64,000 nt of DNA from Bifidobacterium lemurum (lineage in GTDB: Bacteria > Actinomycetota > Actinomycetes > Actinomycetales > Bifidobacteriaceae), in NCBI RefSeq assembly GCF_014898175.1, contig NZ_CP062948.1, positions 1,488,001 to 1,552,000 of the forward strand, given 5' to 3'. The position numbers and the translations under genes are program-made. Positions 805 through 63,852 of the stretch are shown in pieces. The notes beneath the pieces were generated by a model. That model was not told where the DNA came from. It was given only the letters and a program-made list of their open reading frames with translations, and did no database searches. The stretch's first letter is position 1. Every line of letters begins with the position of its first letter.

Positions 805-839
805 GCATATCCCCATCATGGTCCCTGTGGTGGGTGTCC

Positions 840-1013
840 CATCGTGCGGCCCATCGTGCGGCCCATGGTGCGGTCCATGGTGCGGTGTGCCCATGGTGCC
901 GTACTTTCCATGGTGCGGTGCCTTGAAAACGTTGAAATTCCAACCCACCGCACCATGTAGGCACCGCACCATGGGCACCACCGCACCATGTACCGCACGA
1001 TGGGCGCACCATG
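840..1013. repeat. Mirror-symmetric oligonucleotide array (CATGGTGCGG / CCGCACCATG)
   Basis: Left arm: CATSGTGCGG-type copies begin at 840, 852, 864, 876, 892 (partial) and 909, the first four with an exact 12-base period. Right arm: the reverse complement CCGCACCATG begins at 948, 964, 981, 993 and 1004 with small changes. The AT-rich core between them (921-947) contains AACGTTGAAATTCCAAC. No coding potential is evident. It fills most of the 415-base gap between rplI and the tRNA gene. The function is unknown. The core recurs in the array at 51624-51940. Confidence 0.85.
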
Positions 1014-3070: not shown

Positions 3071-3240
3071 GCTGGGTCGGCTGGGCTCGGATTGGTTGGG
3101 CCGGATTGGCTGATCCGGATTGGCTGAGTTGGACTGGCTGAGTTGGGTCGGTTGAGCTGGATTGGTTAAGCCGGATCGACTGAGCCGGATTGGCTGAGCT
3201 GGGTCCGACTGAGCTGGGTCGGTTGAGCTGGGTCGGCTGA
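3067..3240. repeat. Degenerate 15-base direct repeats (TGAGCTGGGTCGGTT)
   Basis: About a dozen imperfect head-to-tail copies of TGAGCTGGGTCGGTT-like units occupy the start of the 681-base gap between the DUF3152 gene and the LacI gene. All copies face the same way and no mirror arm is seen. The array starts over the stop codon of the upstream gene. Nothing here looks coding. Confidence 0.75.
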
Positions 3241-14122: not shown

Positions 14123-14134
14123 AACCACTCATTC

Positions 14135-14241
14135 CTTGAAATTTCAAGCTTTATCGAGGTTTACTACGGTAGTTGGCTATATTTTACTACGGTAGTTGGC
14201 TGTTTTTTACTACGGTAGCTGGCCATTTTTTATCAGTGCAG
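14135..14241. promoter_or_regulatory. Palindrome plus four 23-base iterons upstream of the DUF4143 gene
   Basis: CTTGAAATTTCAAG (14135-14148), a perfect 14-base palindrome, overlaps the leader of the DUF4143 gene. Next come direct repeats with an exact 23-base period: TACTACGGTAG-TTGGC units beginning at 14162, 14185 and 14208 and a degraded fourth, TATCAGTGCAG-TTGAC, at 14231. Each intact unit contains the small palindrome ACTAC-G-GTAGT. The spacing is about two helical turns, so proteins bound to each unit would sit on one DNA face. Confidence 0.75.
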
Positions 14242-14332
14242 TTGACTGTTTGTGCACGCGGTTGAATCGTTGTCAGCAGTGATACCGATGCGTCGTCGGC
14301 ATGCATTCGGCCTGTGCTCGGGCAAGGAAAAA

Positions 14333-26087: not shown

Positions 26088-26157
26088 TTGACAAACGGTG
26101 CTCTCGGACTATTGGTCAGGGTGTGAACGAGCCCTGATTAGCCCGGTGGGGCACCGA

Positions 26158-26305
26158 GTTGGCACCTGAGGCCTCCAGTTGGCACTGTCTGAAGGAGACC
26201 GCTATTACGGCCGGTTGGGAAAACCTTGGAAACACGGGGTTTTCTCAACCGGCCGTTTCCGTATGCGTTCAGGTCGGATGCCAACTGGAAGCGTCAAGTG
26301 CCAAC
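26158..26305. repeat. Mirror repeat around the rho terminator (GTTGGCAC / GTGCCAAC)
   Basis: GTTGGCAC-10-CAGTTGGCA (26158-26184) is repeated as its reverse complement TGCCAACTG-10-GTGCCAAC (26279-26305), with the rho terminator hairpin at the centre. It has the same plan as the arrays at 840 and 51624: iterated oligomer, core, inverted iterated oligomer. Confidence 0.75.
26207..26256 (+). terminator. Strong hairpin after rho
   Basis: ACGGCCGGTTG-g-GAAAACC pairs with GGTTTTC-t-CAACCGGCCGT across a 12-base loop (one mismatch), followed by TTCC. It is a likely terminator for rho, about 120 bases after its stop. Confidence 0.75.
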
Positions 26306-26310
26306 TGCTT

Positions 26311-31528: not shown

Positions 31529-31808
31529 TCGCATCGCAGCGCCGTCTGTCGGCCGCGATGGGGCGATTCTGTGGATTGAGGGTATCTGACGAGTCGGTGG
31601 GTATGGTCGGAGTACGGGGTTGAACCCCTTCTGAGAAAAACACCCGACAGGCGGGGGCGCGTGTAATCGGGGAAAACTCAGGTTTTATTATGGTTGAAAT
31701 GGTAATTCGGGGGTTTTATACATTATTTAGGGTGATACAAGTGGGCTGCCAACGGGTAGAGTAGGGGGTATTCGTATCTAAAGGCAAGCAAGTGGTGGGA
31801 GGATCGTG
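31529..31808 (+). promoter_or_regulatory. Control region of pilus locus 1
   Basis: This gap contains a small GGGGTTGAACCCC hairpin (about 31617-31629) and then an AT-rich stretch with candidate promoter boxes (TTTTATACATTATTT, about 31713-31727). It ends with GGTGGGAGGA ahead of the pilin start. The AT content is much higher than in the surrounding genes. No gene is seen. Confidence 0.5.
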
Positions 31809-34800
31809 ATGAAGCACGGTCAACGACGGAGTCAGTCACGGGGGGGGGGCTTCCGTAATCGAGCCTTGACGGCACTGGCAGCCGCCGTAGTCGCCATGTC
31901 GCTTTGTTCAAGCGTTGCGGTGGCCTTGGATAATCCCGACGGAGATGGTGGTGACGCGCAGACGCAGACCATCATCGGGTCGCCGGAACAGACTGACGAC
32001 ACCGATCAGTCCGGCACCTCCACGACTGACGGTGACAGCACCGAGAACGATTCCTCCGATGCCGGCACCAGTGACGACGCCACTGCCGTTTCTGGTGATG
32101 ATGGCACGGATGAATCTGATGAGTCCGACTCCATCGACGGGCAGGCTGATACGAATTCGGAGGGCACGGTCGACTTCTCCGAGCATACCGTCGCAGGTGT
32201 GACCCCGAGCAATACCACAATCAATCTGTTCGATTACTGGGTGAATTCGACCAATCCGCTCAATGAGGGCAACAGCTATGAGACCTTGATCAACAAGGGT
32301 CATGCACTGAAGTTCCTGTCCCACTCGAATCCCGCCGACTATGCGAAATGTGCCGATGCTGCGAGCTGCAACATTCAGGACCGTGGTGAGGCGAACTTCT
32401 GGACGGGCGCTCGAAGCAGTTCCGGAGGTGAGAAGGATCTTCGTCGTACCGGCATCGTGCAGAACACGTTGGACGAGAGCGGTTATCCGAAGCTTGCAGG
32501 CAATACCGACGAGCATCCCAACATGTTCAAACAGAAGTACGATGGTTCCACCCATGACGATTTCACCGAGTCGTTGCAGTATCTATTCGATCCGACAGTG
32601 AGCCATGACGGCAAGGAGTCGTATGCCGCGGTGGGCAATCTGCTGCAGATTGACGACAACGGTTATTACTACTACGACAGTAGCAAGAACTTCGCCTCCT
32701 ACGACAGTATGAACAGAAAATTCACGTTGTATGACAGCGGTGCGGTCAATGGCGGCGGCACCACGTCGTCGACGAACAGCGGCACGCAGTTCTTCCCGTT
32801 CAACACCGCGGAGGAGGTGTTCGACGCCAACGAGCTGGATAAAGACAGCACGCTGAAACCGAACGGCATTCAAGCGGGCCAGCAGCTCACGCTGAACCAT
32901 TATTTTGGCCTGACGATGTCCACGCGCTTCACCACGCAGAACAACGGCAAGGTGACCGGCTACGACGGCCAAGAGCACGATATGGAATACAACTTCGCCG
33001 GTGACGACGACGTGTGGATCTACATCGACGACGTGCTGGTGGCCGATCTGGGCGGCATCCACGACCCGGTCGGCACGAAGATTAACTTCGCGACCGGCAA
33101 GATCACGTTCGGTAGCATGAACGAGGACGGCTCTCTGGCCGAAATCGCATACAGCACCACCATCTATGAGGCGTTTAAGGCGGCCGGCAAGGAGGGGACC
33201 GTCGACTGGATAAAGTCGGCCGACGGCACCACCAATATCTTCGCGAATGATGGCAACCACACCATCAAGATGTTCTATCTGGAACGCGGCAACCAGGCGT
33301 CCAACCTGCGACTGAGCTTCAACCTGGTGAACATCCCGGAGAGCTCGATCGTCAAGGTCGACCAGTCCGGCAATCCTGTCGCCGGCGTGGTTTTCCAGCT
33401 GTACGGTGCGGATAAAGATTACAGTTACGGGGACAAGTCTCTGGTCGCCGAAGGCACCACCGATAGCGCGGGCCAGCTGGTGCTCACCAATCCCCAAAGT
33501 GGTGAACCCATCTCCTTCGATGAGATATACGCCCGCGGTCCGGGCCAGAACGGCGGTTACGAGCATTATGTGTTGCATGAGGTCAAAGCTCCCGAAGGAT
33601 ACCGAATATCCGGAGACGTGAAACTGGACTATCATCAGCCTACGAACGGCGACACACAACAGTTCAGCGGCTATGTTACCTCGAATACGGAGAGCATGTG
33701 GGAGACGGGCGCGTACGCAAGCGCGGGCGTGCTGATTCAAGCACCAAATGAAATCCATGCGCTGAAGAACCCCGAGAATCCTAATGAAGCGGGAGCGTCA
33801 ATCGACCCGTACTCCGGTAGCCTGTTCGCCGTGGTGCTGATGTATCAGGGTGATGAACCGACCGAGCCGTCGGATCTGTCCGAGCAGGGCAATTGGAAGG
33901 TCGTGGTGGGCGATTCTCTGAACGGCTACACGTACTATGATGCGGATACCATTAAGCAGATTGCCGAAGTGGCAGCCCAGCATCCCGAATCCGCACATCG
34001 CTTCGTCATGCAGGTGAAGGGCGGACTTCAAGCCACTATCGATGAACTTCCGGGCGACATCAGCACGTACTTCAACCTGATCGAATCCAAGTACGGCGCT
34101 CCTTCGACGAACAATATGGACGCCTATAAGAACCTCAAATACACGGTGGCGTACTATCATACGAAGGCGAGTTCTCTGAAGAATGCGACCGGCGACAACA
34201 CCACCCGTCTGTACATCGCGGGCAAAGACGCGAACACGACGTGGCAGCGTCAGTTTTCCGTGAACCTGAAAGTGCCGAACATCAAGAACCGGCTGTTGGT
34301 GCAGAAGACGGATGAGAAGTGGAATCCGTTGACCGACATCGACGAGAAACTGACGGTAAAGTTCACGCTGTACTCCGCGGATCAGTTCGATGTCGAGAAG
34401 AATAAGCCGATTGAACCTGACGACTATTACGATCAGGCGATTACCGAGCCGGAGTTGCTCACCAGCGACGCGGGCATCGACACCGGCAAGATGCTAATGC
34501 ATAGCGCCGCGATGTTCCCCACGGGCGACAAGGTGCTCAAGGAGGGCGTGTATTACCTTGTAGAGACGGGTGCGGCAAGTGCGTCCGAACTATACGGTTA
34601 CAAGGTGACCAGTCAAGTCACCAAGGTGGTGGTGACATCGGACGGTGTCTACGCTGACGCCGGCAAGAGCGATGATGACGTGCGCGTATGGAAGGGCGTG
34701 GGCTCGTTGGTGCGCACTCTGGCGGAGTTCGCGTCCGATGACAAGTTCGACAACACGTTGCGGGACATCACAGCCACATTGCAGACGGGCCCGGAGCCCA

Positions 34801-35816
34801 CGTACGACCAGTCTCTGGGTTGGCGGTACACTTGGAGTGATTCCGATCCCGTTCAGTCGCATAATCTGACCTATGGTTCGGGCGGTGCGGTGCTGCAGTA
34901 TGGATTAACCGGCGTTGAGGCGGGTAGACCGGGGGCCTCGTTCGAGGATGTGTCGCTGATGGTCGACGTTGGCTGGTCGAACCTGAGGATCACGCAGAAC
35001 TATAGCGACAACGTTTCGAGTGACCTCAAGCAGGATCTCGTCGATCTTGATCTGGACAATCTATTCTCCGGTACTACTGCCATTCAGATAAGGAACTGGC
35101 CGAACAATCAGAACGTATCGGTGCCGCTTGAGGCGGTGAAGACCGTTGCCGGTGACGACTGGCCGGAAGGCGCGACGTTCACGTTCAAACTGGAGGCGGG
35201 GGAGAGTCCTCACTCGAAAGTCGAGGTGCCCCTGCCTGTGGGTGATGGTGTGGTGTGCGACTCGCAGGCCGGGAGCTGCACGGTGACAGTGTCGAAACCG
35301 GAATCGGGCAACACGAACACCGTGTCGCTCGGCGATCTCACCTACACATTGCGGATGTTCTCCCCGTCCGGTGTGGCATGGAGCACCGATTCGTTGACCT
35401 TCACCTACACAATCAGCGAGATCACGCCATCGGCCGATAATGCGATCGAGGGGATGACCTATTCGAAGGCCATCTACACGCTCTCCGTGACGGTGTCACG
35501 ACTCGTAACAAGCGGCAACGCTTTGAAAGCCGATGTGACGATGACGCGCGACACCGCGGATAACGGTTCCGCAAGCGGCTTGACCGTGAACACCTCCACA
35601 TGGGGGTACGGCAGCGAAGATGCCGACCATGTGACGCCCAGCGCCACGTTCACGAACTCCTTCGGGCATTCGGGTTTGTCTCTGCCTCTCACGGGTGGGA
35701 CAACCGCCCGTCAGTGGTTGGCTTTGGGTTTGAGTCTAATCGGCATTTCGGTGCTGGCGTGGCTGGCTTATCGCGAGTGGCGTCGTCGCAACGGTTTGTC
35801 CAACACGATTGTGTGA
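31809..35816 (+). CDS. Large sortase-anchored pilus tip/adhesin protein
   Basis: About 1335 residues. A signal peptide (basic start, hydrophobic ALAAAVVAMSLCSSVAVA, cleavage near 38) is followed by an acidic Thr/Ser/Asp linker. A fibro-slime/PA14-like domain lies near 395-500 (GDDDVWIYIDDVLVADLGGI). A CNA-B-like domain follows at about 505 (VKVDQSGNPVAGVVFQLYG), then a second, isopeptide-pilin-like domain near 1100-1280 and the sorting signal LPLTG (about 1292) with membrane helix and RR tail. ATG 31809 fits GGGAGGA (5 bases); GTG 31806 is too close. Codons 11-14 contain a run of ten G. It is the first gene of pilus locus 1. Confidence 0.88.
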   Translation: MKHGQRRSQSRGGGFRNRALTALAAAVVAMSLCSSVAVALDNPDGDGGDAQTQTIIGSPEQTDDTDQSGTSTTDGDSTENDSSDAGTSDDATAVSGDDGTDESDESDSIDGQADTNSEGTVDFSEHTVAGVTPSNTTINLFDYWVNSTNPLNEGNSYETLINKGHALKFLSHSNPADYAKCADAASCNIQDRGEANFWTGARSSSGGEKDLRRTGIVQNTLDESGYPKLAGNTDEHPNMFKQKYDGSTHDDFTESLQYLFDPTVSHDGKESYAAVGNLLQIDDNGYYYYDSSKNFASYDSMNRKFTLYDSGAVNGGGTTSSTNSGTQFFPFNTAEEVFDANELDKDSTLKPNGIQAGQQLTLNHYFGLTMSTRFTTQNNGKVTGYDGQEHDMEYNFAGDDDVWIYIDDVLVADLGGIHDPVGTKINFATGKITFGSMNEDGSLAEIAYSTTIYEAFKAAGKEGTVDWIKSADGTTNIFANDGNHTIKMFYLERGNQASNLRLSFNLVNIPESSIVKVDQSGNPVAGVVFQLYGADKDYSYGDKSLVAEGTTDSAGQLVLTNPQSGEPISFDEIYARGPGQNGGYEHYVLHEVKAPEGYRISGDVKLDYHQPTNGDTQQFSGYVTSNTESMWETGAYASAGVLIQAPNEIHALKNPENPNEAGASIDPYSGSLFAVVLMYQGDEPTEPSDLSEQGNWKVVVGDSLNGYTYYDADTIKQIAEVAAQHPESAHRFVMQVKGGLQATIDELPGDISTYFNLIESKYGAPSTNNMDAYKNLKYTVAYYHTKASSLKNATGDNTTRLYIAGKDANTTWQRQFSVNLKVPNIKNRLLVQKTDEKWNPLTDIDEKLTVKFTLYSADQFDVEKNKPIEPDDYYDQAITEPELLTSDAGIDTGKMLMHSAAMFPTGDKVLKEGVYYLVETGAASASELYGYKVTSQVTKVVVTSDGVYADAGKSDDDVRVWKGVGSLVRTLAEFASDDKFDNTLRDITATLQTGPEPTYDQSLGWRYTWSDSDPVQSHNLTYGSGGAVLQYGLTGVEAGRPGASFEDVSLMVDVGWSNLRITQNYSDNVSSDLKQDLVDLDLDNLFSGTTAIQIRNWPNNQNVSVPLEAVKTVAGDDWPEGATFTFKLEAGESPHSKVEVPLPVGDGVVCDSQAGSCTVTVSKPESGNTNTVSLGDLTYTLRMFSPSGVAWSTDSLTFTYTISEITPSADNAIEGMTYSKAIYTLSVTVSRLVTSGNALKADVTMTRDTADNGSASGLTVNTSTWGYGSEDADHVTPSATFTNSFGHSGLSLPLTGGTTARQWLALGLSLIGISVLAWLAYREWRRRNGLSNTIV
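31840..31849 (+). repeat. G10 homopolymer near the 5' end of the pilin gene
   Basis: Ten consecutive G residues inside codons 11-14 (Ser-Arg-Gly-Gly-Gly). Gain or loss of one base would shift the frame and switch the adhesin off. As read, the frame is on. Confidence 0.9.
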
Positions 35817-35968
35817 CGCCACACAATCCCCATAACAGAAGATTTCGGATATGCAGAGGCGCTCGGCGCTCGAACGATGTTTGTTCCGCACCGAGCCTGG
35901 CTCGAACTCGAGTGTGAAATCCTCCACGCTGTCCGTAAAGGAAAACAATAACAGGAAGAGAGATTCCC

Positions 35969-37792
35969 ATGAAGATGAGGAAACTATTCGCGAGCATCGC
36001 CGCCGCAGCAACGATGCTCGCCGGCCTCGCAGTCGGCGCGACCACCGCTAATGCTGTAATTGTTGGACCGGATGATGATCCTTCCAACACCGCGAATCGT
36101 ACGGTTACGTTGAACGCTGAAGATGCCCAGCAGTTTACGAGCCATACCTACAAAGCGGTGAAGATTGCGTCCTATGATGTGTATGGCACGTCACCGGATC
36201 AGTCTCTGACCTTAGTCACTGAGGCAGACCCGGTGAAGACTGCCGTGACCAAGGCGCTCAAGGCCGCTGGCTACGAGGTTCCTGCGACCGCGACTGATCC
36301 GCTGGCCGCTGCCCAGCAGTTGGATAGTGCCACGTTGGATCAGTCGGACACCTTCCCCTTCAATGGTGATGGTTCTACCCGTACGTTCGCTGATGCGCTG
36401 CGTGATGATTCCACGCTGACTAATAGTCTGCAAAATGTCACGCTGAATGATGTTGCGAACAGCGATGGCTTGAAGAAGACCATCACTTTCGACACTCCCG
36501 GTCTGTGGCTGATTCTTGACCAGAACGCCGTGGATGATTCCTCCTCAAAGTCGTTGCCGATTCTTGTGGGCACCCCGCTTACCCTCAACGCTGGAACTGG
36601 CACAGAGAAGGTCTATGCCATAGGTGAGATAGCGGTGAAGAATCAGATCCTTCCCGTGAAGAAGGTCGTGACGGATCAGACCGTGGCAGCTGGTGAGAAC
36701 GCCAACTACACGATCAACACCAACATCCCGAACTACATCGGCCATTACGTGAATGGCTACGAATTCACCGTGTCCGATAAGTTCGGTGACGATGCGCCGT
36801 TGGAATACGTGGCGGGCACTCTGAAGGTGTACGTTGCGAAGACCGCCGACGCGGATGAGGACAACCTGCCTGAAGACGACAATGACGATTGGGATGTGCT
36901 GTCGTCCGACTTGGACTACACCGTCACTGGCTTTGCTGCCAATTCGAAGAGCTTCACCATTGACATGAGCACCTATATCAGGACGCAAGCGTTCACAGGG
37001 CAGACTGTCGCAGATGATTCGAAGTTCGATAAAGATGCTCTTGCTGGTAAGCAGGTCATCGTCAAGTACTCCGCCAAGGTGACCGGCTCTACTGGTACAG
37101 CTGGCGCGGCCAACGCGCCTGGCATCAAGTATCCGAACGATCCGTCCGATAACACTAAGTCCGATACGATTCCGGGCGATCCGGAGAAGGTGTTCAACTT
37201 CGACTACAAGCTGGTCAAGCGCGACAAGACCACCCAGGCTCCGCTGTCAGGCGTGAAGTTCACTATCAAGAAGGTGAATGGTACCGAAGGTAAGGTGCTT
37301 GCCTACGAACCTAGCTCCGGTTGGAGTGAAGTCGATGCGCCGGCCGCCACTGCTACTGGTACGGAGAACGGCGTGTTCACCACTGATACTAATGGCGAGA
37401 TCACTTTCCTGGCGTTGGCTGACAATATTGGCGATACGACCTCACAGAAGTACACCATCACTGAGCTTGCCCCGGCATCGGGATACTTCAACCCCGGTGT
37501 AAGTTTCAACTTCACGCTCCAGGCTACAGTGACGAACCCCCATACCTCGTCGGCCACCGCCTCCGCTACCTATGCGATTGACGCTGACGGCGTCGGTTCC
37601 GATACTTGGGGATTGGTCTCCGGCGGCAACGCCGCGACTGTGACTGTGGACAACGTGAAGAACATCACCGAACTGCCGTTGACCGGTGGCGCGGGGATCG
37701 CTCTGTTCTCCGTGATCGGCCTGCTGCTGGTGGGCGCGGCATTCACGGTGTATGCCAAGATGCGTAGCACCAAGAAGGCTCTGCTCGTCTGA
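35969..37792 (+). CDS. Major pilin (SpaH/EbpB/FimA-type, isopeptide-forming)
   Basis: 607 residues. A signal peptide (cleavage near ANA, 27-29) is followed by pilin beta-domains. A KYPND stretch (about 390) may serve as the shaft-linking lysine region. E-box-like YTITELAPASGYF occurs near 495, then the sorting signal LPLTG (about 571), a membrane helix and a basic tail. AGGAAGAGAG precedes the ATG. The 152-base gap before it contains no terminator. It is expected to be the shaft subunit polymerised by the downstream class C sortase. Confidence 0.92.
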   Translation: MKMRKLFASIAAAATMLAGLAVGATTANAVIVGPDDDPSNTANRTVTLNAEDAQQFTSHTYKAVKIASYDVYGTSPDQSLTLVTEADPVKTAVTKALKAAGYEVPATATDPLAAAQQLDSATLDQSDTFPFNGDGSTRTFADALRDDSTLTNSLQNVTLNDVANSDGLKKTITFDTPGLWLILDQNAVDDSSSKSLPILVGTPLTLNAGTGTEKVYAIGEIAVKNQILPVKKVVTDQTVAAGENANYTINTNIPNYIGHYVNGYEFTVSDKFGDDAPLEYVAGTLKVYVAKTADADEDNLPEDDNDDWDVLSSDLDYTVTGFAANSKSFTIDMSTYIRTQAFTGQTVADDSKFDKDALAGKQVIVKYSAKVTGSTGTAGAANAPGIKYPNDPSDNTKSDTIPGDPEKVFNFDYKLVKRDKTTQAPLSGVKFTIKKVNGTEGKVLAYEPSSGWSEVDAPAATATGTENGVFTTDTNGEITFLALADNIGDTTSQKYTITELAPASGYFNPGVSFNFTLQATVTNPHTSSATASATYAIDADGVGSDTWGLVSGGNAATVTVDNVKNITELPLTGGAGIALFSVIGLLLVGAAFTVYAKMRSTKKALLV

Positions 37793-37810
37793 CGGACGAT
37801 CCGAACTCGA

Positions 37811-37849
37811 CATGTGCGGGATGAATGGTGCACGTTCATCCCGCACATG
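37811..37849 (+). promoter_or_regulatory. Intercistronic hairpin between the major pilin and the HTH gene
   Basis: Perfect 15-base arms CATGTGCGGGATGAA / TTCATCCCGCACATG around a 9-base loop, with no T tract. It lies 19 bases after the pilin stop. It may stabilise the 3' end of the pilin message or reduce read-through to the sortase gene, so that shaft subunits outnumber sortase. Confidence 0.75.
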
Positions 37850-37877
37850 CGTAGGCGGCAAACAGAAAGGATGTGTC

Positions 37878-38345
37878 GTGTCTCGCAACCGCCGCATGTT
37901 CACTTCAGAGGAGATGGCGTACCTCGGCATGCTGCCGGTGGTCCGCCATGTCACCCACTCCCGCATCAGCTACACCCACGATTTCAAAGTCGACTGTCTG
38001 CGCGCGTATCTATCCGGAGAATCACCGACGGCCATCTTCCGTAAGGTCGGCCTCGACCCGTCGCTGGTGGGTGCCAAACGCATCGAACGATGCTTCGCCC
38101 GCTGGAAGCAATCCCCGGACCTCGTCGAAGAGGCGCAGCTCAGAATCAGCAACGACACGGGACCGACCTACCCAGGCCTCGACGAGAGCGTGTCGCCGTA
38201 CGATATCTCCCGCGTCACCCTGCCGAATTCGAACGGCAAAAAAGTCGACCTGCGAGACCTGATCATCTACCAGCAGTCGCTGCACATCCATGAGTTGGAG
38301 CAGGAAATCTCCCGGCTGCGTTCCGTCCACGAGTCGATGGTATGA
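37878..38345 (+). CDS. Small helix-turn-helix protein in the pilus operon
   Basis: 155 residues. A transposase-like helix-turn-helix (TSEEMAYLGML ... DFKVDCLRAYLSGESPTAIFRKVGLD) is followed by a linker and a C-terminal helix rich in Glu/Leu. No catalytic transposase residues are seen. GTG 37878 has GAAAGGA 6 bases upstream. It overlaps the sortase gene by four bases (ATGA), so the two are coupled. A local regulator of pilus expression is a reasonable inference; nothing in the sequence proves it. Confidence 0.65.
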   Translation: MSRNRRMFTSEEMAYLGMLPVVRHVTHSRISYTHDFKVDCLRAYLSGESPTAIFRKVGLDPSLVGAKRIERCFARWKQSPDLVEEAQLRISNDTGPTYPGLDESVSPYDISRVTLPNSNGKKVDLRDLIIYQQSLHIHELEQEISRLRSVHESMV

Positions 38346-39307
38346 CCTTCGAAGAGGCTTTGGACGTCGCCGATATCGTGGCGCGACGGCGGCGACTGCG
38401 ACGGCAGGTGGCGGTGATGCGCGCCATCATCGCCACGCTGCTGGTCGCGGCCGTCGTCGTGACGGGATATCCGCTCGCATTGCAATGGTATTCGTCGCGT
38501 GAGCTGGCCGCCGCGTCGGCGCAGGCGTCCCAGCAGGTGGCGGGATGGCCGTATCCCCAAGCCGAGGAGACGCTGGCCGCCGCGCGCGACTACAACGCGC
38601 GTCTGGCCGAGCGCGGACAGTCGGTTCTGGGCGAGGCGGGCGATCCCTTCAGCTCGCTGGCGGGTGGCTCGCAGGCCTCCGATGAGGATGATTCCGTGGC
38701 CGCGCGCGACGAGGACTACCAGTCGCAGCTTGACGCCGGCGATGGGGTGATGGGGACGATCCGCGTGCCCAAAGTCTCCATAGAACTGCCGATCTATCAC
38801 GGCACCAGCGAAAGCGTGCTGGCGCGTGGCGCAGGGCATTTGTATGGCACGTCGCTGCCTGTGGGCGGCGAGTCGACGCATAGCGTGATCACCGGGCATC
38901 GCGGCCTGGTGGAGGCGCTGATGTTCACGCGCATCGACGAACTCGTCGAGGGGGATTTCATCTACGTCGAGGTGATGGGGGAGACGCTCGGATACGAGGT
39001 GGACCGCATCACGGTGATCGAGCCGGATGACGATTCACAGCTGACCATCGTGCCGGGCGAGGACCGGCTCACCCTGATGACGTGCACGCCGTACGGCGTG
39101 AACACGCATCGTCTGTTGGTCTCCGGCCATCGGGTGAGCATCCCGAATCCCGCACCCGACCCGACCGATCTGTATGACGCGCGCACCATCGCTTTGTGGG
39201 TGGGCATGGCCGTGCTCGCCGTCGGATGGGGTGCTCTGCGCATCGTGGGCTACATTCGCCGGTCCAAGCGCAACACCCTCGGCGCATGCCGGCATCTGGC
39301 CGATTGA
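38342..39307 (+). CDS. Class C sortase (pilin polymerase)
   Basis: 321 residues. An N-terminal membrane helix (about 28-50) is followed by a lid region with DPFSSL, the class C hallmark. The catalytic domain has H186 (VITGHRG), C248 (LMTCTPYG) and R257 (THRLLVSG), and there is a second C-terminal membrane helix. It cleaves LPxTG-type signals and joins pilins through a shaft lysine. It is the last gene of locus 1. Confidence 0.94.
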   Translation: MTFEEALDVADIVARRRRLRRQVAVMRAIIATLLVAAVVVTGYPLALQWYSSRELAAASAQASQQVAGWPYPQAEETLAAARDYNARLAERGQSVLGEAGDPFSSLAGGSQASDEDDSVAARDEDYQSQLDAGDGVMGTIRVPKVSIELPIYHGTSESVLARGAGHLYGTSLPVGGESTHSVITGHRGLVEALMFTRIDELVEGDFIYVEVMGETLGYEVDRITVIEPDDDSQLTIVPGEDRLTLMTCTPYGVNTHRLLVSGHRVSIPNPAPDPTDLYDARTIALWVGMAVLAVGWGALRIVGYIRRSKRNTLGACRHLAD

Positions 39308-39394
39308 CATAGCCGCGAACAGGCTTTCTGACTCGGATTCAACCAGCACCATAGGGTAACGCATTTGGAGTCCTCGCCAGCCCATAAGCAGAGT

Positions 39395-39482
39395 GAAATT
39401 CCGAAAAGTGTCAGAAACAAGGGGTTTGAAATTCTGAAAAGTGTCAAAAACAGGGTGTTTGAAATTCCGAAAAGTGTCAAAC
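39395..39482. repeat. Three 33-base tandem repeats (GAAATTCCGAAAAGTGTC)
   Basis: Units begin at 39395, 39428 and 39461 with an exact 33-base period and few changes: GAAATTCCGAAAAGTGTC followed by AGAAACAAGG-like spacer and GGTTT. Because 33 is divisible by three, a spurious open frame with an 11-residue repeat runs through it. Probably noncoding. Confidence 0.8.
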
Positions 39483-39522
39483 CTTCGGGTACCACCACCG
39501 TATTTCGTAGGTGCCTGTTGTC

Positions 39523-39579
39523 AACTGGCAAAATAAAACTGCCAATTTCTCCAAAACTGGCAAAGTAGCTTTGCCAGTT
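39523..39579. repeat. CTGGCAAA/TTTGCCAG cluster with a perfect hairpin
   Basis: AACTGGCAAA occurs at 39523 and 39555, with a related AACTGCCA at 39537. The second copy pairs perfectly with TTTGCCAGTT (39570-39579) across a 5-base loop. It may end the sortase transcript on the plus strand. With the tandem repeats upstream, it fills the 403-base gap between the sortase gene and valS. Confidence 0.7.
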
Positions 39580-39628
39580 AACGAATGTGGGTAGTGCTGT
39601 TGTCGGCCGTTCGCAAGACTCATATGAA

Positions 39629-51483: not shown

Positions 51484-51623
51484 AGGCGCTGGGGTGGATG
51501 ATATGGGTGCCACGGATGACTGTATGCACAGGGGAGGCTCGATACATGGAGTCCGTGGAACCTGAGAATCGGTGGATGGCTGTGCGCACAGGGAGATGTT
51601 GGCTGATTGGGGCCGTCGTGATC

Positions 51624-51940
51624 TTCGGGCGGTTACCTGCTCCCCGGGTGGTTCTGATCCTTCGGGTGGTTGCCGGATCGCTTGGGCGGTTTTCTGGCCC
51701 CTTCGGGCGGTTCCCAAACTGTTCGGGCGGTCGCGTCATCGTCATTCCACAGTTCACCCATCCTAAGAACGTTGGAATTTCAATGTTCTTGTATTACGCC
51801 ACCGATATAGGCAACCGCCCAAGCGGTCGAAAAACCGCCCGAAGGATCAGGGAACCGCCCGAACACCAGAAACCGCCCGAACACCTCAGAAACCGCCCGA
51901 GGGGCCAGGAACCGCCCGAGAACCGGATGAACCGCCCGAA
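51624..51940. repeat. Mirror-symmetric array (TTCGGGCGGTT / AACCGCCCGAA)
   Basis: Six TTCGGGCGGTT-like words lie at about 51624, 51644, 51661, 51682, 51702 and 51722; seven inverted AACCGCCCGAA-like words lie at about 51812, 51833, 51852, 51870, 51890, 51909 and 51929, with about 20-base spacing. The core carries a near-perfect 26-base palindrome (51765-51790) AAGAAC...GTTCTT with TTGGAATTTCAA at its centre. It lies in the 852-base gap between the AlbA gene and glgE; no gene is seen. Confidence 0.85.
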
Positions 51941-52061
51941 GGCCAGCCCATACTGTCGAGATCCGACCGGGTCACCCGGATGGTTGGAGAATAAGGCCAT
52001 AGAGGCTGATGCGGTCGTTCAGGTCGATGCCGTTGGTGGTGGCACCCGAGCCTCCAAACGC

Positions 52062-56739: not shown

Positions 56740-59700
56740 ATGGTACGGAACATAATCGGCGATGGTGCCAGAGCGCTGGTCGCGATCGCGCTGGCCGCCA
56801 TGACCGTGCTGACCGTGTTGGCCGCCATGGCGTGCGTGATGCCGGTCATGGCTCAGGAACCGGCCGCGGCGGAACCCTATGCGAGCGTCTCCATCGAAAA
56901 GCTGGCGGACGGCACGGGCCACGGCACGGCCGCGCAGACCTTCATCAACTCGTCCAACGGATTCCTCCCGGGCGACGAGTCCGCCGACGACGGCGTGGTC
57001 GCCTCCGCGGACACCGTCGCCTATCTGCTGCGGCTGCGGTTCACCGCGGCGGGGCAGCGGGACGTCCGCGTGGAGTGGGATCTGCCGGAACAACTGTCCG
57101 CCCTGGACATCGGCTGCTATGCGGGCCGCATCGTCACGGCGACGGCAGACGGCGAATCGGCGTGCCTGTACCATGTGCCGGCCGGCGCCGTCGAATCCCT
57201 GGAACGAGTCGTCACCTTGACCGCGCGGGACACCGGTGGCGTGGCGGTCGACGGTGTGCGGCCGACCGTCTCCTTCTCCCGGCAGGGAGGGCGCGGCTAT
57301 ACCGTTCGGCCGGAAGCGTTGACCATCGTCAGCGCGCCCCGCGCCGACCTGGTGGTCGACAACGGCGGTCTCGGCGACGCGGGCGACAAAACGGAACGTG
57401 TCAGCGCATGGACGCAATCCGGCCAGGTGAGCGGATGGTTCGACCTGCGCATCCGCCATCTGACCTACCCGGGGCATACGACCACCCATGGCGCCAGCGG
57501 CGCGGGCGAATGGAGCGCCACCGTCGACGTCTCCGCGTTCCCCGCCTCCACCACATGGACGGTGGGCGGAACGCCGGTCGCGGCCTCGAACGGCCGGCTG
57601 CGTATCGAACGCGCGAAAGGCGAACAGCGCCTCGAATGGTCGATTCCCGCCGTCGATCCGACGATCCGAGGCATGGCCGAAGGCGGCGTCATCGACCTGG
57701 ACATCCACGTCGCGCCCGACAAGGGCGGTTTCCAAGCGCGGGGAGAGACGGCCCTGGCCAACAACGGCGACGGCGGACAGCCGGGCGACGGCATGGCGCG
57801 CGACGAATCCACCCGAGACGAGCGCACCGGGGCGATCGCCGGCTATCCGTACGCCAACAACGACTACAGCCGCGCGATCATCGAACGGCCCGCCAGATGG
57901 CAAAGCGAAGGCGACCATATGTTCGGCCGATACGATCCGCTGGCACCGGCGATTCCCTCCGGATCGACGCGATTCGACCGCGAAGGGCGCGAATTCGCCG
58001 CATCCGGTGCCACGCGCGCCGTCGGCGATCAAGGCGTGGCGCGCGACACGCAAGTGCTGCATCGTCTGGTGCTCTGGCCCGGCAATATGCCGGATTGCGA
58101 GCGAAACTGCGATGCGCGGCTCTCCTACCAGTGGGACCGCGCGCAGGAACGCTACAACGGCGACCTGCGGGTGCTGCTCGACGGGCAGCCGTTGGACAGT
58201 CGCCTGTGGTGGGTGGAATGGAGCGCGGACATACTTCCCGACGCGTCCGGCGATGACGGCGTATGGCATACGGGAACCCCGGACGCCACGGCCCGGGCCA
58301 TACGGCTGCGCCTGCGCGACGACATCGGATACGGCGGCGCGTCGGACGGCGGCACGCTGGAGATGCGTTTCGTCAGCCGCGCCATCGCCGATCCGGCCCG
58401 CGGCAACGTGCGGGTGGAAGGCGAGACGCGGATGCGCATGGGCGACCGGCTCACCAGCAAACCCCTCGCCTCCGGCTATTGGGTGGTGGCGCCGGGGAAT
58501 CCGGAAGCGACGTTGAAGGCGGACGCGCAAGCCACGTCCAGCGACGGATTGAAGGCCGACCCGCTCGATCTGCGCCCATCGGATGTCGTCACCTACACCA
58601 TCACGCCGCATATCGCCAATATCGCCGACTCGTCCACCCCGCTCACCGCCACCGTGACGGCCGGCCTGCCCGAAGGGCTGACCACTGTGGAGAATCTCAC
58701 GCCCCAATGGACGATGCGCCGCGACGGACGCACGTTGACCTTCACCCTCGCCGGGCATACGCCACCGTATGACGCGGACGGCGACGCCTCCCTGCCCGCC
58801 ATCCGATGGAGCGCCACCGTCTCCAACCTCGCGCAGGGCACGCTCGCCTCGGCCTGCGGCATGCGGGCGCTCGCCGCAGGCGCCGCCGCCGTCTCGAACA
58901 CCGCCAGCACGCAGGTGGCCGTCAGCCGGGCGGATATGCACGCCGCGCGCGTGACGGCGCTCGACGAACGCGTGGAGGCGGGGGACAAGCTGCGTTGGCG
59001 TTTCAACATCGTCGACCGCGGCGTCGCACGCGAGGGAACGGTCACCACGGTGCTGCGCCTGCCCTCCAATCAGGACTCCGCCATGACCGGCGCGAACAAC
59101 ACCGGCCTCGACGGCACATGGAAGGAATACACTCTCGGATCGTCGGCCTTCCACGGCCGTCCCGCCCTCGCCGGACCCGTGGAATTGGATGGGGAGAACA
59201 CCAGCGAAGGCACCTCCGTGGCCTATGCGACCGACGGGAGATACTCCGACGATCCCCGCTACTACCAGTGGCGCGCGTGGGACGACCTCTCCCAAAGCGA
59301 ACGGGCTCGCATCACCGCCATCCGCATCATCTCACCGTTCACCCGCACCTCCACGCGCATGGCCTGCGCGCAGGGAGTGGTCACCCTGACCGCGGACGGC
59401 AGCCAGACCGACGACCTCTACCATCTATGGATCGGCCGCAGCCGTTTCAGCGCCGGCGCCATAACCGCCACCATGCCCTGGCCCGACCGCATCCGCGTAT
59501 CCGACGCCTCCATCGCAGGGCGTCTGTGGTGGGACGAGAACGGCGACGGGCGTGTGGACGCCGCGGAATCCGGCATCGCCTCCGTCACCGTCAGCCTATG
59601 GCGGGCGGACGGGCAAGGAGCGGCCGTCGGCACCGCGCTCGCCACCACACGCACCGCGGCGGATGGCGGCTACCGTTTCGATCGGCTACGGCACGGCGAC

Positions 59701-62700
59701 TACCTCGTCACCGTCGCCCGCGACGGCGAATACGGCGTGCCCCGCCAGCGCGACGACTACTACGGGCGGGCGCACACGGTGCGCAACACCGCCACATGGA
59801 ACGCGCGCTTCGGCACCCAGGCAACGGACGTCAGCGACCGCATCGCGCTGGGCGTCGGCGAGACGCTCGCGCATGTGAACTTCGGATACGACGCGCCGGA
59901 TCCCAAAATCACCGTCGACAAAACCCAGACCAGACTCGAATGCCCCGACGACGCGGCCGAGGCGTGCACGGTCGCCTGGGATGTGATCGTCGACAATGTG
60001 GGAGACCAGAGCGTCGACGCCGACGGCATGCTGACGGACCGCACCAGCGACGACGTCACCGCGCTCGCCGCCACGGCCGGCACCATCGCCCACACGCCCG
60101 ACAGCGAGGTCGTGTTCTCCTCCGTGCATTCCGGCGGCACCTTCGCCTACGCCATCGACACGCAAGGCCACCTGTGGAGCTGGGGCCGCAACGACTACGG
60201 GCAGTTGGCGCTTGGCGACACCACGGACCGGCACGCGCCCACCATGGTGCCTACCGACCGCACGTTCGCGACGGTCGAAACGACCACCAACGGCATGCTC
60301 GCCCTTGACACGCAAGGGCGTCTGTGGGCGGCCGGGCAGAACCAGCGCAATGTGCTGGGCGACGCCGACAGCGCCGCCAACTACGCCTGGAACGACAAAA
60401 CCGGCTTCTCCACCCTGCATGCGGTGATGCCGGAGCGCGCATGGGCGAGCGTGAGCGTGTCCGACGGACTGACCCTCGCCATCGACTCCCAAGGGCGTCT
60501 GTGGAGCTGGGGCGCGCTCAGCGACGGCCTCGGCGTGGGACGCGCCGCCACCTCATCCGTGGCGTCCTCATGGATCGAAGCCACCCGCCTGTCCCTCGAC
60601 CAGACCTTCTCCACGGCGCAGGCCGGCAGCAGCGCGGCGTTCGCCATCGACACGCAAGGGCGTCTGTGGAGCTGGGGAGACGACTGCCGGTTCGGATCGC
60701 AAGGCAGCTGCGGCGCGTTGGGCGACGGCACCACCGGCGGGCGCACCTCCCCGGCCAAAGTGATGTCCAACCGCACGTGGCGCGACGTGGTCGTCTCCGG
60801 CAGCGTCACCAATTGCACCGTGCTCGCCTTGGACACCTCCGGCAAGCTTTGGGTCTGGGGGCAAAACGCGGCGCAACGGACATTATGGAACCTCGGCATC
60901 GACGCGCGGTCCGCGGCCACCCCCACCGCCATCATGACGGGGCGGACATGGACCGCCATCGCCGGAGGCGACGTGAAAGCCGCCATCGACGCGCAAGGAC
61001 ACATCTGGATGTGGGGATCGAACGCCCACGGCGTCTACGGCGACGGAACCACCAGCGCCAGCGTCACGCCCCGACTGGTGCGAGACGACCGCGCGCATAT
61101 CGCGATATCGAACGGCATGGCCACCCTTGCTCTGGACGTGGATGGCCGCATCAGAAGCACCGGCGTGGGCAAACGCGGCGCTTTAGGCCTCGGTCCAAAC
61201 GTCACCGCCGTGACCGTCCCCACGTTGGTCGATATGCGCGAAGCCGGCGAACTGTCGGATTCCACCGCCGTTCCGGTCACGCCCGTCAGCGTGGGGCAGA
61301 CGGGCGACCTCGTTGAACGCGTCTATCGTCTGCCGGCCGCCATCGCGCCCGGCGAACGGATGGTGTTCCATTTCAGCGGCTCGGTGACGCGCTCCGAACA
61401 ACGTCGGCCCATCGTCAACCAAGCGTGGTTCGACTCCCCGGACACGCCATACGCGGGCGTTCCCCATGCGCGTTCGGCGGGCGTGGACGAACCGGAACCT
61501 CCCGACGCCGTACGGCTGAACGCCGCCACCCACGACGTCGTGGGCAATGCCACATGCCGCAGCGGCGGCGACTACGCGTCGGCCGGACTTGAACATTCCT
61601 TCGCCGCGGGCAACGAAGACTCCTGCGACCAAGTGGGCGCGATGGTCCCCGCCGGCTCCACCGCGCCCGTGCCCGGGTCGATCGGCGGCCTCGCCTGGCT
61701 GGACGGCAACGCGAACGGATTGCGCGACGCCGGCGAACGCATGCTCGGCGGGGCGGTGACCGTCTCCTTGTGGTCGTTGGACGCTTCCGGCGGCGAAACC
61801 AAAATCGACGAAACCGTCACCGATGAGAACGGACGGTACGTCTTCGACCGGCTCGCCATGGGCGATTACCGTATTTGGTTCGCTTTGGGAGACGCGCGAT
61901 ACGGCTTCACCGCACCAGGCCAAGGCAATGGCGTCAATGATTCCGATGCCAGCGACCGCGCCGTCGACTATGGCGGCACCGGCGTGCTGACGTTACGCGC
62001 CGCCTCCTCATCCCACGACCACGTCGACGCCGGCGCGGTCGTCACCAGCCCGACCATCGGCCTGCTGCCCTTCGCGGGCGGCAGCGCCATGGCCGCGCCC
62101 CTCCTGTTCCTCACGCTGATCGGCGGCCTTGCCGTCGTAGGCGCGAGGCGCAACCCCATCACCACTATCGGAAAGGACACCATCATGACCCGCACCTCCA
62201 CCATCGCCTCCCTCGCCGCCGCGGCGGCCATCGCGATACTCGCCGTCGCAGGCGTCGCCCCCGGCGCTTTCGCCGCCGATTCCGCCGTGGATCTCGCCAG
62301 CAAGGAGAGCATCACCATCAGCTCCACCGGAGCTCTCGCCGGACACAGCTTCACCGCCGCGAACCTGGCCGAATACATTGCCGCCCAAACCGACGGCACC
62401 GTGCTCACCGGCGTGGATATGAGCACCAACGGCAAACTCACATCGGCCGTCGCCTCCGCGCTGGATCAGATCGACACCGACTCCGCCAAAGCCGGTGTGC
62501 AGAAACCCGCCTATGATGCGAAGAATCCCATGAAATGGGTGTCGACGAATCTGCGCGAGAACGCGACGCCGCAATGGTCCGGCCAGCTGCGCGAATTGGC
62601 CGGTCTGCTCGCGCGGGACGCCACGGTCACGGCCGCCGCGACGAGCAAGGCGACGGTAAACGGCGCCACGGCCACATTCTCGGGTCTCACTCCCGGCGTG

Positions 62701-63852
62701 TATCTGATCCTCGACTCCACCGCCGCGGGCACGCCTGCGTCCCTGCCGATGATCGTAAGCACCAAGGCCGGCGGGAAAAGCTTCGCGACGATGACGTTGG
62801 GCACGGCGCGGATCAAGCTCTCCGCCGTCGCGCCGCCGGTGAAGAAGATTCTGGAATCCGACGGAAACTCCACCAAAACCGTGGACGCGACGCATGCCGC
62901 CATCGGCGAATCCATCACCTACCGCATCACCCAGCAGGTGCCGAATTGGACCGGCTATGACGGCTATCGGCTGCATGTGGTGGACAGCTTGGGCGAGGGG
63001 CTGACCTATGGAGAACTGGTCGGCATCAAGGTGAACGGCAAGGCGCTGCAGTCCGACCAGTTCCTGGAGAAGCTTTCGGGACGGACCGCCACATGGACGA
63101 TGGGCGGTGCGGGCGACGATATCCTCGCCACGCAGGCGCTGCGCACGGTGTTCGCGCCGGGAGCGAGCATCCAGATCGACTACCGCGCGAGCATCAATGC
63201 GCAAGGCGTGATCGCGGGCGCGGGCAATCCGAACAGCGTCAAACTCAGCCATACCGCCGACCAACGCGACAAGGGCGTGATGCGCGAGGTGCCGGGCAAC
63301 ACCGTCACCGCATACACCGGGGCGTTCAGTCTGAACAAAATCGATGGGCAGGGCGCCGCCATCGACGCTTCGTTGGGTGCCCGATTCCACATATATAAGG
63401 TGGAGAACGGCACGCGTTCCGGAAACGCGCTTAAGTTCTCGAACACCGGTTCGGGCGCATACACGTTGGCGGCCGACCAGCAGGGCTCCGGTCTGGTCAG
63501 CGACATTCCGGCCGGCAAGGCCACGCTGAACGGTATGGATGGGGAATACGAGGTCGTCGAGGCGAGCGCGCCGCAAGGCTATCTCTCCGCGTTCAAGCCG
63601 ACGTTCCGGGTGTCGGTGACCACCGGCGCGAAAGGCGTCACCCTGACCATGACCAAGCGCGACGGCGACGGCCTCGCCTCCATCGATTCCGTGAACACCA
63701 GGCAGGTCAATGTCGTGAATCTCACATCGATGACCCAGCTGCCGATGACGGGCAGCACCATGCTGACCATCATGTCGGTCGTCGCGGTTCTGCTGATCAC
63801 GGGCGGCGGCGCGTTGACCCTCTGCATGTCGCGCAAGGTCGGCGGTCGATGA
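56740..63852 (+). CDS. Giant surface protein with RCC1-type propeller, read in frame into a pilin
   Basis: 2370 codons without a stop. Residues 1-1815: signal peptide (AQEP near 38), beta-sandwich/isopeptide-type domains, an SdrD_B domain (about 925-1040), seven RCC1-like repeats (about 1126-1490; each with AIDTQGRLWSWG-type phrase), a second SdrD_B (about 1648-1740), then a sorting-like LPFAGG signal (about 1776), hydrophobic helix and ARR. Instead of a stop, the frame runs on 16 residues into a second signal peptide and complete pilin (see 62185). AAGGAG 7-8 bases before the ATG supports the start. Probably a pilus tip or accessory adhesin. Confidence 0.8.
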   Translation: MVRNIIGDGARALVAIALAAMTVLTVLAAMACVMPVMAQEPAAAEPYASVSIEKLADGTGHGTAAQTFINSSNGFLPGDESADDGVVASADTVAYLLRLRFTAAGQRDVRVEWDLPEQLSALDIGCYAGRIVTATADGESACLYHVPAGAVESLERVVTLTARDTGGVAVDGVRPTVSFSRQGGRGYTVRPEALTIVSAPRADLVVDNGGLGDAGDKTERVSAWTQSGQVSGWFDLRIRHLTYPGHTTTHGASGAGEWSATVDVSAFPASTTWTVGGTPVAASNGRLRIERAKGEQRLEWSIPAVDPTIRGMAEGGVIDLDIHVAPDKGGFQARGETALANNGDGGQPGDGMARDESTRDERTGAIAGYPYANNDYSRAIIERPARWQSEGDHMFGRYDPLAPAIPSGSTRFDREGREFAASGATRAVGDQGVARDTQVLHRLVLWPGNMPDCERNCDARLSYQWDRAQERYNGDLRVLLDGQPLDSRLWWVEWSADILPDASGDDGVWHTGTPDATARAIRLRLRDDIGYGGASDGGTLEMRFVSRAIADPARGNVRVEGETRMRMGDRLTSKPLASGYWVVAPGNPEATLKADAQATSSDGLKADPLDLRPSDVVTYTITPHIANIADSSTPLTATVTAGLPEGLTTVENLTPQWTMRRDGRTLTFTLAGHTPPYDADGDASLPAIRWSATVSNLAQGTLASACGMRALAAGAAAVSNTASTQVAVSRADMHAARVTALDERVEAGDKLRWRFNIVDRGVAREGTVTTVLRLPSNQDSAMTGANNTGLDGTWKEYTLGSSAFHGRPALAGPVELDGENTSEGTSVAYATDGRYSDDPRYYQWRAWDDLSQSERARITAIRIISPFTRTSTRMACAQGVVTLTADGSQTDDLYHLWIGRSRFSAGAITATMPWPDRIRVSDASIAGRLWWDENGDGRVDAAESGIASVTVSLWRADGQGAAVGTALATTRTAADGGYRFDRLRHGDYLVTVARDGEYGVPRQRDDYYGRAHTVRNTATWNARFGTQATDVSDRIALGVGETLAHVNFGYDAPDPKITVDKTQTRLECPDDAAEACTVAWDVIVDNVGDQSVDADGMLTDRTSDDVTALAATAGTIAHTPDSEVVFSSVHSGGTFAYAIDTQGHLWSWGRNDYGQLALGDTTDRHAPTMVPTDRTFATVETTTNGMLALDTQGRLWAAGQNQRNVLGDADSAANYAWNDKTGFSTLHAVMPERAWASVSVSDGLTLAIDSQGRLWSWGALSDGLGVGRAATSSVASSWIEATRLSLDQTFSTAQAGSSAAFAIDTQGRLWSWGDDCRFGSQGSCGALGDGTTGGRTSPAKVMSNRTWRDVVVSGSVTNCTVLALDTSGKLWVWGQNAAQRTLWNLGIDARSAATPTAIMTGRTWTAIAGGDVKAAIDAQGHIWMWGSNAHGVYGDGTTSASVTPRLVRDDRAHIAISNGMATLALDVDGRIRSTGVGKRGALGLGPNVTAVTVPTLVDMREAGELSDSTAVPVTPVSVGQTGDLVERVYRLPAAIAPGERMVFHFSGSVTRSEQRRPIVNQAWFDSPDTPYAGVPHARSAGVDEPEPPDAVRLNAATHDVVGNATCRSGGDYASAGLEHSFAAGNEDSCDQVGAMVPAGSTAPVPGSIGGLAWLDGNANGLRDAGERMLGGAVTVSLWSLDASGGETKIDETVTDENGRYVFDRLAMGDYRIWFALGDARYGFTAPGQGNGVNDSDASDRAVDYGGTGVLTLRAASSSHDHVDAGAVVTSPTIGLLPFAGGSAMAAPLLFLTLIGGLAVVGARRNPITTIGKDTIMTRTSTIASLAAAAAIAILAVAGVAPGAFAADSAVDLASKESITISSTGALAGHSFTAANLAEYIAAQTDGTVLTGVDMSTNGKLTSAVASALDQIDTDSAKAGVQKPAYDAKNPMKWVSTNLRENATPQWSGQLRELAGLLARDATVTAAATSKATVNGATATFSGLTPGVYLILDSTAAGTPASLPMIVSTKAGGKSFATMTLGTARIKLSAVAPPVKKILESDGNSTKTVDATHAAIGESITYRITQQVPNWTGYDGYRLHVVDSLGEGLTYGELVGIKVNGKALQSDQFLEKLSGRTATWTMGGAGDDILATQALRTVFAPGASIQIDYRASINAQGVIAGAGNPNSVKLSHTADQRDKGVMREVPGNTVTAYTGAFSLNKIDGQGAAIDASLGARFHIYKVENGTRSGNALKFSNTGSGAYTLAADQQGSGLVSDIPAGKATLNGMDGEYEVVEASAPQGYLSAFKPTFRVSVTTGAKGVTLTMTKRDGDGLASIDSVNTRQVNVVNLTSMTQLPMTGSTMLTIMSVVAVLLITGGGALTLCMSRKVGGR
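62185..63852 (+). CDS. Pilin of locus 2 (isopeptide-forming, LPMTG), internal in-frame start
   Basis: 555 residues from ATG 62185, which has GGAAAGGA 7 bases upstream. Own signal peptide (ASLAAAAAIAILAVAGVAPGAFAA), pilin domains (KKILESDGNSTKTV ... YRITQQVPNWTGYDGY), E-box YEVVEASAPQGYL and the sorting signal LPMTG (about 520) with membrane helix. It is in frame with the upstream giant gene. As an independent translation product it would be the shaft subunit of locus 2. Confidence 0.85.
   Translation: MTRTSTIASLAAAAAIAILAVAGVAPGAFAADSAVDLASKESITISSTGALAGHSFTAANLAEYIAAQTDGTVLTGVDMSTNGKLTSAVASALDQIDTDSAKAGVQKPAYDAKNPMKWVSTNLRENATPQWSGQLRELAGLLARDATVTAAATSKATVNGATATFSGLTPGVYLILDSTAAGTPASLPMIVSTKAGGKSFATMTLGTARIKLSAVAPPVKKILESDGNSTKTVDATHAAIGESITYRITQQVPNWTGYDGYRLHVVDSLGEGLTYGELVGIKVNGKALQSDQFLEKLSGRTATWTMGGAGDDILATQALRTVFAPGASIQIDYRASINAQGVIAGAGNPNSVKLSHTADQRDKGVMREVPGNTVTAYTGAFSLNKIDGQGAAIDASLGARFHIYKVENGTRSGNALKFSNTGSGAYTLAADQQGSGLVSDIPAGKATLNGMDGEYEVVEASAPQGYLSAFKPTFRVSVTTGAKGVTLTMTKRDGDGLASIDSVNTRQVNVVNLTSMTQLPMTGSTMLTIMSVVAVLLITGGGALTLCMSRKVGGR

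Follow-up and report, generated by a model that had tools for sequence, protein, structure and literature searches.

The locus at 51624-51940 of the window, meaning the whole 64-kb stretch of Bifidobacterium lemurum DNA that was analysed, raises the question of what kind of element sets short, oriented words in mirror image around a palindrome. Such arrays are real and unusual. They look like a little-described kind of putative protein-binding repeat element, and the main reading, to which we give a probability of somewhat more than one third, is a BIME-1-like extragenic element whose oriented words assemble a symmetric protein complex while another factor binds the centre.

Layout of the mirrored arrays

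The array at 51624-51940 consists of six TTCGGGCGGTT-type words on the forward strand, a near-perfect 26-bp palindrome and seven words on the reverse strand (Table 1), which is the arrangement that the original prediction had described. The word positions bear it out, as do matches to YTCGGGCGGTT with at most one mismatch: 12 of the 18 matches in the 64-kb window fall inside the array, and shuffling the whole window yields 3.92 ± 1.80. The word at 51643 departs from this pattern by more than one mismatch. Within the core, 11 of 13 pairs are Watson-Crick and two are G-T. The centre has a GC content of 0.44, taken over an 84-bp span that includes a few word bases, compared with 0.635 for the window. 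Because their words are inverted, this array and the one at 840 both fold strongly as single strands (z = -9.1 and z = -11.9, respectively).

Table 1. Coordinates of the arrays and their parts in the window, and fate of the compared arrays in the sister species G052
Feature	Position or loci	Strand	Description
Left arm, family B	51624..51732	+	six 11-bp TTCGGGCGGTT-type words, steps 18-21 bp, core-facing
Left-arm word starts	51624, 51643, 51661, 51681, 51702, 51722	+	read off the sequence
AT-rich centre	51733..51812	.	between innermost words
Palindromic core AAGAACGTTGGAATTTCAATGTTCTT	51765..51790	.	26 bp
Right arm, family B	51813..51940	-	seven words (AACCGCCCGAA on +), steps 18-20 bp, core-facing
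Right-arm word starts	51813, 51833, 51853, 51871, 51891, 51910, 51930	-	read off the sequence
Segment missing in G052	51492..52008	.	517 bp, whole array included
Family A mirrored array	838..1005	.	CATSGTGCGGT words, six (+) and four (-), at most 1 mismatch, core 926-944
Family A array core AAAACGTTGAAATTCCAAC	926..944	.	
Third mirrored array, family D	26157..26306	.	two AGTTGGCA words per arm, exact 20-bp steps
Arrays present in G052	L021 (core changed), L023, L002, L003, L086		
Arrays missing in G052	L013, L015, L017, L026, L028, L025 (= 51624-51940), L009, L010, L074		
Array ambiguous in G052	L030		

The family A array had been predicted to combine unrelated arm words with the same core, and it does so. 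Its words are of the CATSGTGCGGT type, unlike TTCGGGCGGTT, and exact RTTGRAATTYCAAY occurs in the window at two places, the cores of these two arrays; with up to two mismatches there are four matches, against 1.04 in shuffles. The array lies upstream of tRNA-Lys and has fewer words in the sister species G052. The sharing of one core stops short of the family D array, whose centre is a different palindrome (26207-26256) and not the GTTGRAATTYCAAC core. Words of the AGTTGGCA type were also seen flanking a core-like centre at genome position 799156 (L074).

Across the B. lemurum genome, family A occupies 8 loci and family B occupies 7. The arms had been called strain-specific, which is right in that words differ between families and wrong in that both families coexist in this one genome. 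The mirroring itself is general, with words pointing to the core in 150 of 157 instances from 14 arrays (two to three mismatches allowed, weak matches included). Arms hold from 2 to 14 words, and word numbers vary between loci and between sister species, in line with the predicted evolution of the arms. Steps of 18-21 bp make up 59 of 71 intervals in family B, and those of family D are exactly 20 bp in four arms. Family A has steps of 12, 16 and 17 bp, with no helical phasing; these steps are mirrored too, the short one tending to lie outermost on both arms. The centres of six of the seven B arrays measure 84, 116, 116, 116, 128 and 116 bp, with GC contents of 0.43-0.50, and A arrays have a short centre only.

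Mirrored words also accompany the core in other members of the genus. At 80 Bifidobacterium core sites (12 from B. lemurum and 68 from other Bifidobacterium, taken from motif match lists and not drawn at random), mirrored 8-letter words beat all 12 of a site's own shuffles in 23 cases, where about 6 are expected by chance. The predicted family of core plus arms thus holds for the core, a real shared motif, but 57 of the 80 sites have no mirrored word beyond shuffles: the core also exists apart from arrays and is not merely a part of them. The lower-ranked of the 23 have two to three words per arm and irregular steps. The strongest arrays outside B. lemurum are L226 (5+5 words, all steps 21 bp) and L420 in genome G518 (5+5 words, steps of 19 bp with one of 38); both genomes are Bifidobacterium, their words are unrelated to families A and B, and their layout is alike. 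Of 72 core sites, 19 had mirrored flanks and 10 had flanks repeated in direct order that scored above the 95% control level. Mirrored flank scores exceeded locus-internal controls (5% level) at 10 of the 25 viral sites and at 12 of the 32 from the genome collection; the median mirrored and direct scores were 10.0 and 10.0 for viral sites, and 10.25 and 9.25 for genome-collection sites. A terminus bias of the arrays was considered and dropped: the distances of 19 array positions from coordinate 1 gave a KS P of 0.10, and a DnaA motif was found in neither the first nor the last 4 kb.

The palindromic core in the genus and beyond

A genome-wide search with the core finds it far above chance. The 13-letter pattern GTTGRAATTYCAA has 12 exact sites in the genome and 39 strand-hits with up to one mismatch, and its backward control has 0 in either case, so the core is not, as the original prediction had allowed for, a word that occurs without arrays at chance frequency. 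In the order, CGTTGRAATTYCAA is present in 48 of 73 Bifidobacterium genomes (B. lemurum included) and in 0 of 46 genomes from other genera, its control giving 5 hits across the same 119 genomes. A class-wide draw of 393 genomes contained CGTTGRAATTYCAACG in 2, one of them B. lemurum itself (control 1). Further afield, AACGTTGRAATTYCAACG occurs in at least 120 stretches of named genomes, and the matches listed include Bifidobacterium, many Clostridia and other records; some of them must be chance, with an estimate of about 30 over the collection. A 16-letter form has 1 to 8 copies per genome in 24 genomes chosen as holding one (control 0), and a 20-letter form appears in 28 stretches of viral contigs. 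B arrays carry core variants with one half reading TGGCGGAATT.

The surroundings of the core are varied. Several copies adjoin tRNA genes. In four viral loci (L376, L382, L383 and L392), the core and mirrored words lie 110-149 bp upstream of a gene of phrog_4210, a DNA polymerase family with primase-like matches, and in three others (L378, L380 and L381) an integrase gene lies 85-102 bp away from the core. AT-rich hosts show no enrichment of core sites between convergent genes (7/40 vs 30/204, P 0.63); 1/40 vs 28/204 lie between divergent genes (P 0.06), and 4 further sites are inside ORFs. A role of the core as terminator in these hosts was accordingly set aside, as gene orientation gives it no support. 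As separate observations, most core copies of one clostridial genome (L410-L414 and L416) lie at contig breaks just before the start of a repeated gene, which we take to resemble an insertion-sequence transposase, and GCGACACGCCG or its tail is found up to about 120 bp from the core in L251, L255, L256, L267 and L274 and at 1062-1072 of the window, preceding tRNA genes in L267 and in the window.

Just outside the core, position 9 is paired in 35 of 72 sites, with four pair types and 19.8 expected, and a smaller excess extends up to position 15, so that in many cases the stem continues beyond the core. The core fits both a hairpin and a symmetric protein site, and it may be recognised by something, as had been proposed.

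Conservation, turnover and neighbours of the arrays

Across 70 B words, word columns hold 1.0-2.0 bits, while the 18 spacer columns range from 0.03 to 0.68 bits and 13 of them lie below 0.25; the word values are inflated and the spacer values are not, because instances were picked by word match. Compared with the sister species G052, three orthologous B arrays differ at 64/407 word and 90/329 spacer positions (Fisher P 1.3e-4), although the alignment of repeats may inflate the spacer differences and part of the low spacer conservation possibly stems from it. B words thus vary less than B spacers. The same arrays differ at 42/321 centre positions and at 99/608 positions outside; leaving out the badly aligned L002, the counts are 27/266 for words and 33/483 outside. 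For two A arrays they are 35/191 in words, 11/74 in spacers, 6/53 in centres and 61/825 outside. A words thus differ no less than A spacers. In these three B and two A arrays, words change no more slowly than flanking DNA, and this weighs most heavily against the protein-site reading.

The two arms of an array are related differently in the two families. In family B, the two arms of a locus have spacer sequence in common (33 of 39 words are closer to their own opposite arm), as expected from inverted copying or from pairing in a hairpin; A arms have no such sharing (13 of 35). Position-wise co-variation of opposite words is not significant in family A, where 244 of 2000 shuffles reach the observed value, and weak in family B, where 37 of 2000 do.

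Whole arrays come and go between the sister species. G052 is 92-96% identical beside the 51624-51940 locus and lacks a segment containing the entire array; GCTG stands at 51488-51491 and at 52005-52008 in B. lemurum and once in G052, as a direct join. Across 15 arrays compared (8 A, 6 B and 1 D), 5 are present, 9 missing and 1 unclear in G052; the comparison took six of the seven B arrays, leaving out L368, and L094 had 63 flank bases only. At L013, L015 and L010, other sequence takes the place of the array, and these are therefore not clean joins. One outer word of L028 remains in G052, and a direct repeat of about 65 bp that flanks L009 in B. lemurum has a single copy there; deletion between direct repeats in G052 is thus the probable origin of some absences. 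The repeats at missing segments are dissimilar (4-bp GCTG at L025, about 65 bp at L009, none clear at L017), and the arrays compared with G052 show no fixed target duplication or terminal repeat; the terminal inverted repeats and fixed-length target duplication of a MITE or transposon are thus not seen in them.

The arrays are extragenic and their repeats opposed, as in REP/BIME elements, and 0 of 15 lie between divergent ORFs (ORFs picked by codon composition in both cases). Named neighbours are unrelated ordinary genes: glgE, an SLFN-AlbA protein, rplI, clpB-like, alr, kdpD-like, an FGGY kinase and an ABC transporter (reading frames chosen by codon-position GC; 19 proteins scanned with Pfam). 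No initiator gene is among these named neighbours, 2 of 10 proteins in one scan being without a family. The Y1/RAYT transposase family PF01797 has no match in B. lemurum and is found in 1 of 11 genomes searched (G051), and the D5_N primase has none in B. lemurum and matches in 7 of 59 genomes searched. In the window and in nine array or core loci, only tRNA reaches the Rfam gathering score. A BLAST search of 72,556 plasmid and 50,697 phage records (E 0.01, low-complexity filter on) gave no match for the A and B arrays, and doubled B words gave two hits in viral contigs, both AT-rich and with words in one direction only. The core at 51765-51790 has no terminator-like site; the 1 kb around the array has three where shuffles give 1.1, and two of the three fall inside the arms. 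By eye, a GC-rich stem followed by a T run is seen beside some tRNA genes and in L420, where TTTTT after the core stem looks terminator-like.

Possible nature of the arrays

In the BIME-1-like reading, the array would be one copy of a dispersed, non-coding, extragenic Bifidobacterium element. Each 11-13 bp word would be the site of a sequence-specific protein whose specificity varies with the array family. Words have one orientation per arm and lie about two helical turns apart in several families, so that two rows of protein would converge; the palindromic centre, AT-rich in family B, may bind a second, widely conserved factor or open into a hairpin or cruciform; joined over this centre, the rows might form a symmetric complex. 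By analogy with BIME-1 and RIB, the effect would likely be local: the arrays might shape DNA, or they might insulate or terminate transcription in the intervals between genes. Comparison with G052 shows that units are gained and lost and that whole arrays come and go, some absences presumably being deletions between direct repeats. A bolder extension, which we regard as doubtful, makes this a fast-changing word-and-reader system in cells and phages: a DNA-binding reader peculiar to each Bifidobacterium lineage would form phased rows in mirror image that run to a universal palindromic core occupied by a second factor, and initiator-like proteins would find in the arrays exchangeable places to land or decoys.

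Two serious rivals compete with the BIME-1-like reading. The arrays could be orphan replication-origin-like sites, with opposed iterons and an AT-rich centre as in phage-inducible islands, left as chromosomal relics or kept as decoys that titrate a phage or satellite initiator; we consider this rather improbable. The position of the core and mirrored words upstream of phrog_4210 genes speaks for it, as do the words of L118, L276 and L426, which resemble DnaA boxes. But the four viral loci share one gene family and seem related, viral flanks score as high for direct repeats as for mirrored ones, and fifteen origins per chromosome would be odd; moreover, an initiator gene among the identified neighbours, a D5_N match in B. 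lemurum and counterparts of the A and B arrays in the plasmid and phage records are all missing. The rival serious in the same degree, and also rather improbable in our estimate, is a functionless product: a palindrome would provoke template switching, in the course of which neighbouring words are copied in inverted order. Such copying would account for B arms that are alike within a locus, arrays that come and go between sisters, words that change no more slowly than flanking DNA, and the direct repeats around the variable segment at L009 and at the 51624-51940 locus. It accounts poorly for unrelated words that take the same layout in different genomes, for B words that vary less than their spacers and for a core that recurs far outside the genus, and A copies are alike at 8 loci, which indicates that they were dispersed and not made in place.

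A hairpin element acting as RNA or single-stranded DNA, whether a terminator, a processed RNA or the substrate of a hairpin-recognising recombinase, is in our view unlikely. The strong folding of both window arrays, the co-varying stem just outside the core, the T run in L420 and core copies that follow tRNA genes are consistent with it; set against these are opposite words without clear positional co-variation, a core at 51765-51790 without a terminator-like site, Rfam matches confined to tRNA, and AT-rich hosts in which the core does not favour convergent genes. The short oriented repeats could also recall the polar loading sites of a DNA translocase, such as KOPS for FtsK or the 8-bp TRS repeats of Streptomyces TraB, but nothing observed in this analysis ties such a motor to the array words, and this idea is very improbable. 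For Streptomyces, chromosomal clt-like sequences are reported in PMC4170104.

Among known systems, the closest in layout are BIME-1 and the PICI origins. According to PMC2817692, BIME-1 has two opposed REPs around an IHF-interacting stretch, BIME-2 binds gyrase, RIBs lie at 3' ends of transcription units and REPs usually number more than 100 per genome; PMC3733652 gives the REP unit as a palindrome of 20-40 bp. Like BIME-1 and RIB of E. coli, the arrays are dispersed, extragenic and built of opposed repeats around a central stretch. They differ in arms of 2 to 14 short words set at nearly constant steps, where BIME-1 has one palindromic REP on each side; in words of 11-13 bp that are non-palindromic, only the core being a palindrome; in a centre that is a conserved palindrome common to unrelated word families; in about 15 copies in B. 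lemurum; and in the lack of a Y1-type transposase found there. For PICI origins, PMC6092414 describes an AT-rich region between two sets of iterons. Family B has both of these features, and the centre of family A is short; unlike PICI/SaPI origins, the arrays do not lie directly 3' of an initiator gene, none being recognised beside them, they occur in many copies per chromosome, and a conserved palindrome marks their centre. The arrays therefore resemble both classes in layout and belong to neither by their membership tests. The Rep origins of small circular replicons, which combine a conserved stem-loop with specific iterons, are similar in their constant hairpin and variable iterons, but the arrays have words on both sides and come with no recognised nick site or HUH gene. 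Foldback elements and MITEs share inverted arms of sub-repeats and presence or absence between relatives; the arrays differ in having no terminal inverted repeat or consistent target duplication, and some of their absences look like deletions.

In title and abstract, no paper was found that describes these arrays in Bifidobacterium, within a coverage that most subscription journals fall outside, and the stem 'bifidobacter' is absent from the main text of a 2025 REP survey (PMC12306157). The element unites a centre also found far beyond the genus with arms whose kind of word changes but whose geometry stays the same. If proteins read the arrays, the words would give direct access to a family of proteins whose binding specificity changes fast, and chromosomal repeats would be tied to the replication regions of phages by their common layout.

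The window holds further repeats. At 3059-3240, a 14-bp unit (TGGATCGGCTGAGC) is repeated in tandem about 13 times, always in one direction, with no mirrored half seen. At 14135-14251, a core-like palindrome (CTTGAAATTTCAAG) precedes about four direct repeats of 23 bp (TTTACTACGGTAGTTGGC...), and the whole lies immediately upstream of the reverse-strand DUF4143/AAA gene at 12848-14128. A 33-bp tandem repeat including TGAAATTCCG spans 39394-39582 and adjoins a hairpin with CTGGCA words; a pilin-like surface protein and a sortase gene occupy 31806-39307, and the frame at 56740-63852, 2370 aa long, combines RCC1-like repeats and pilin-type domains.
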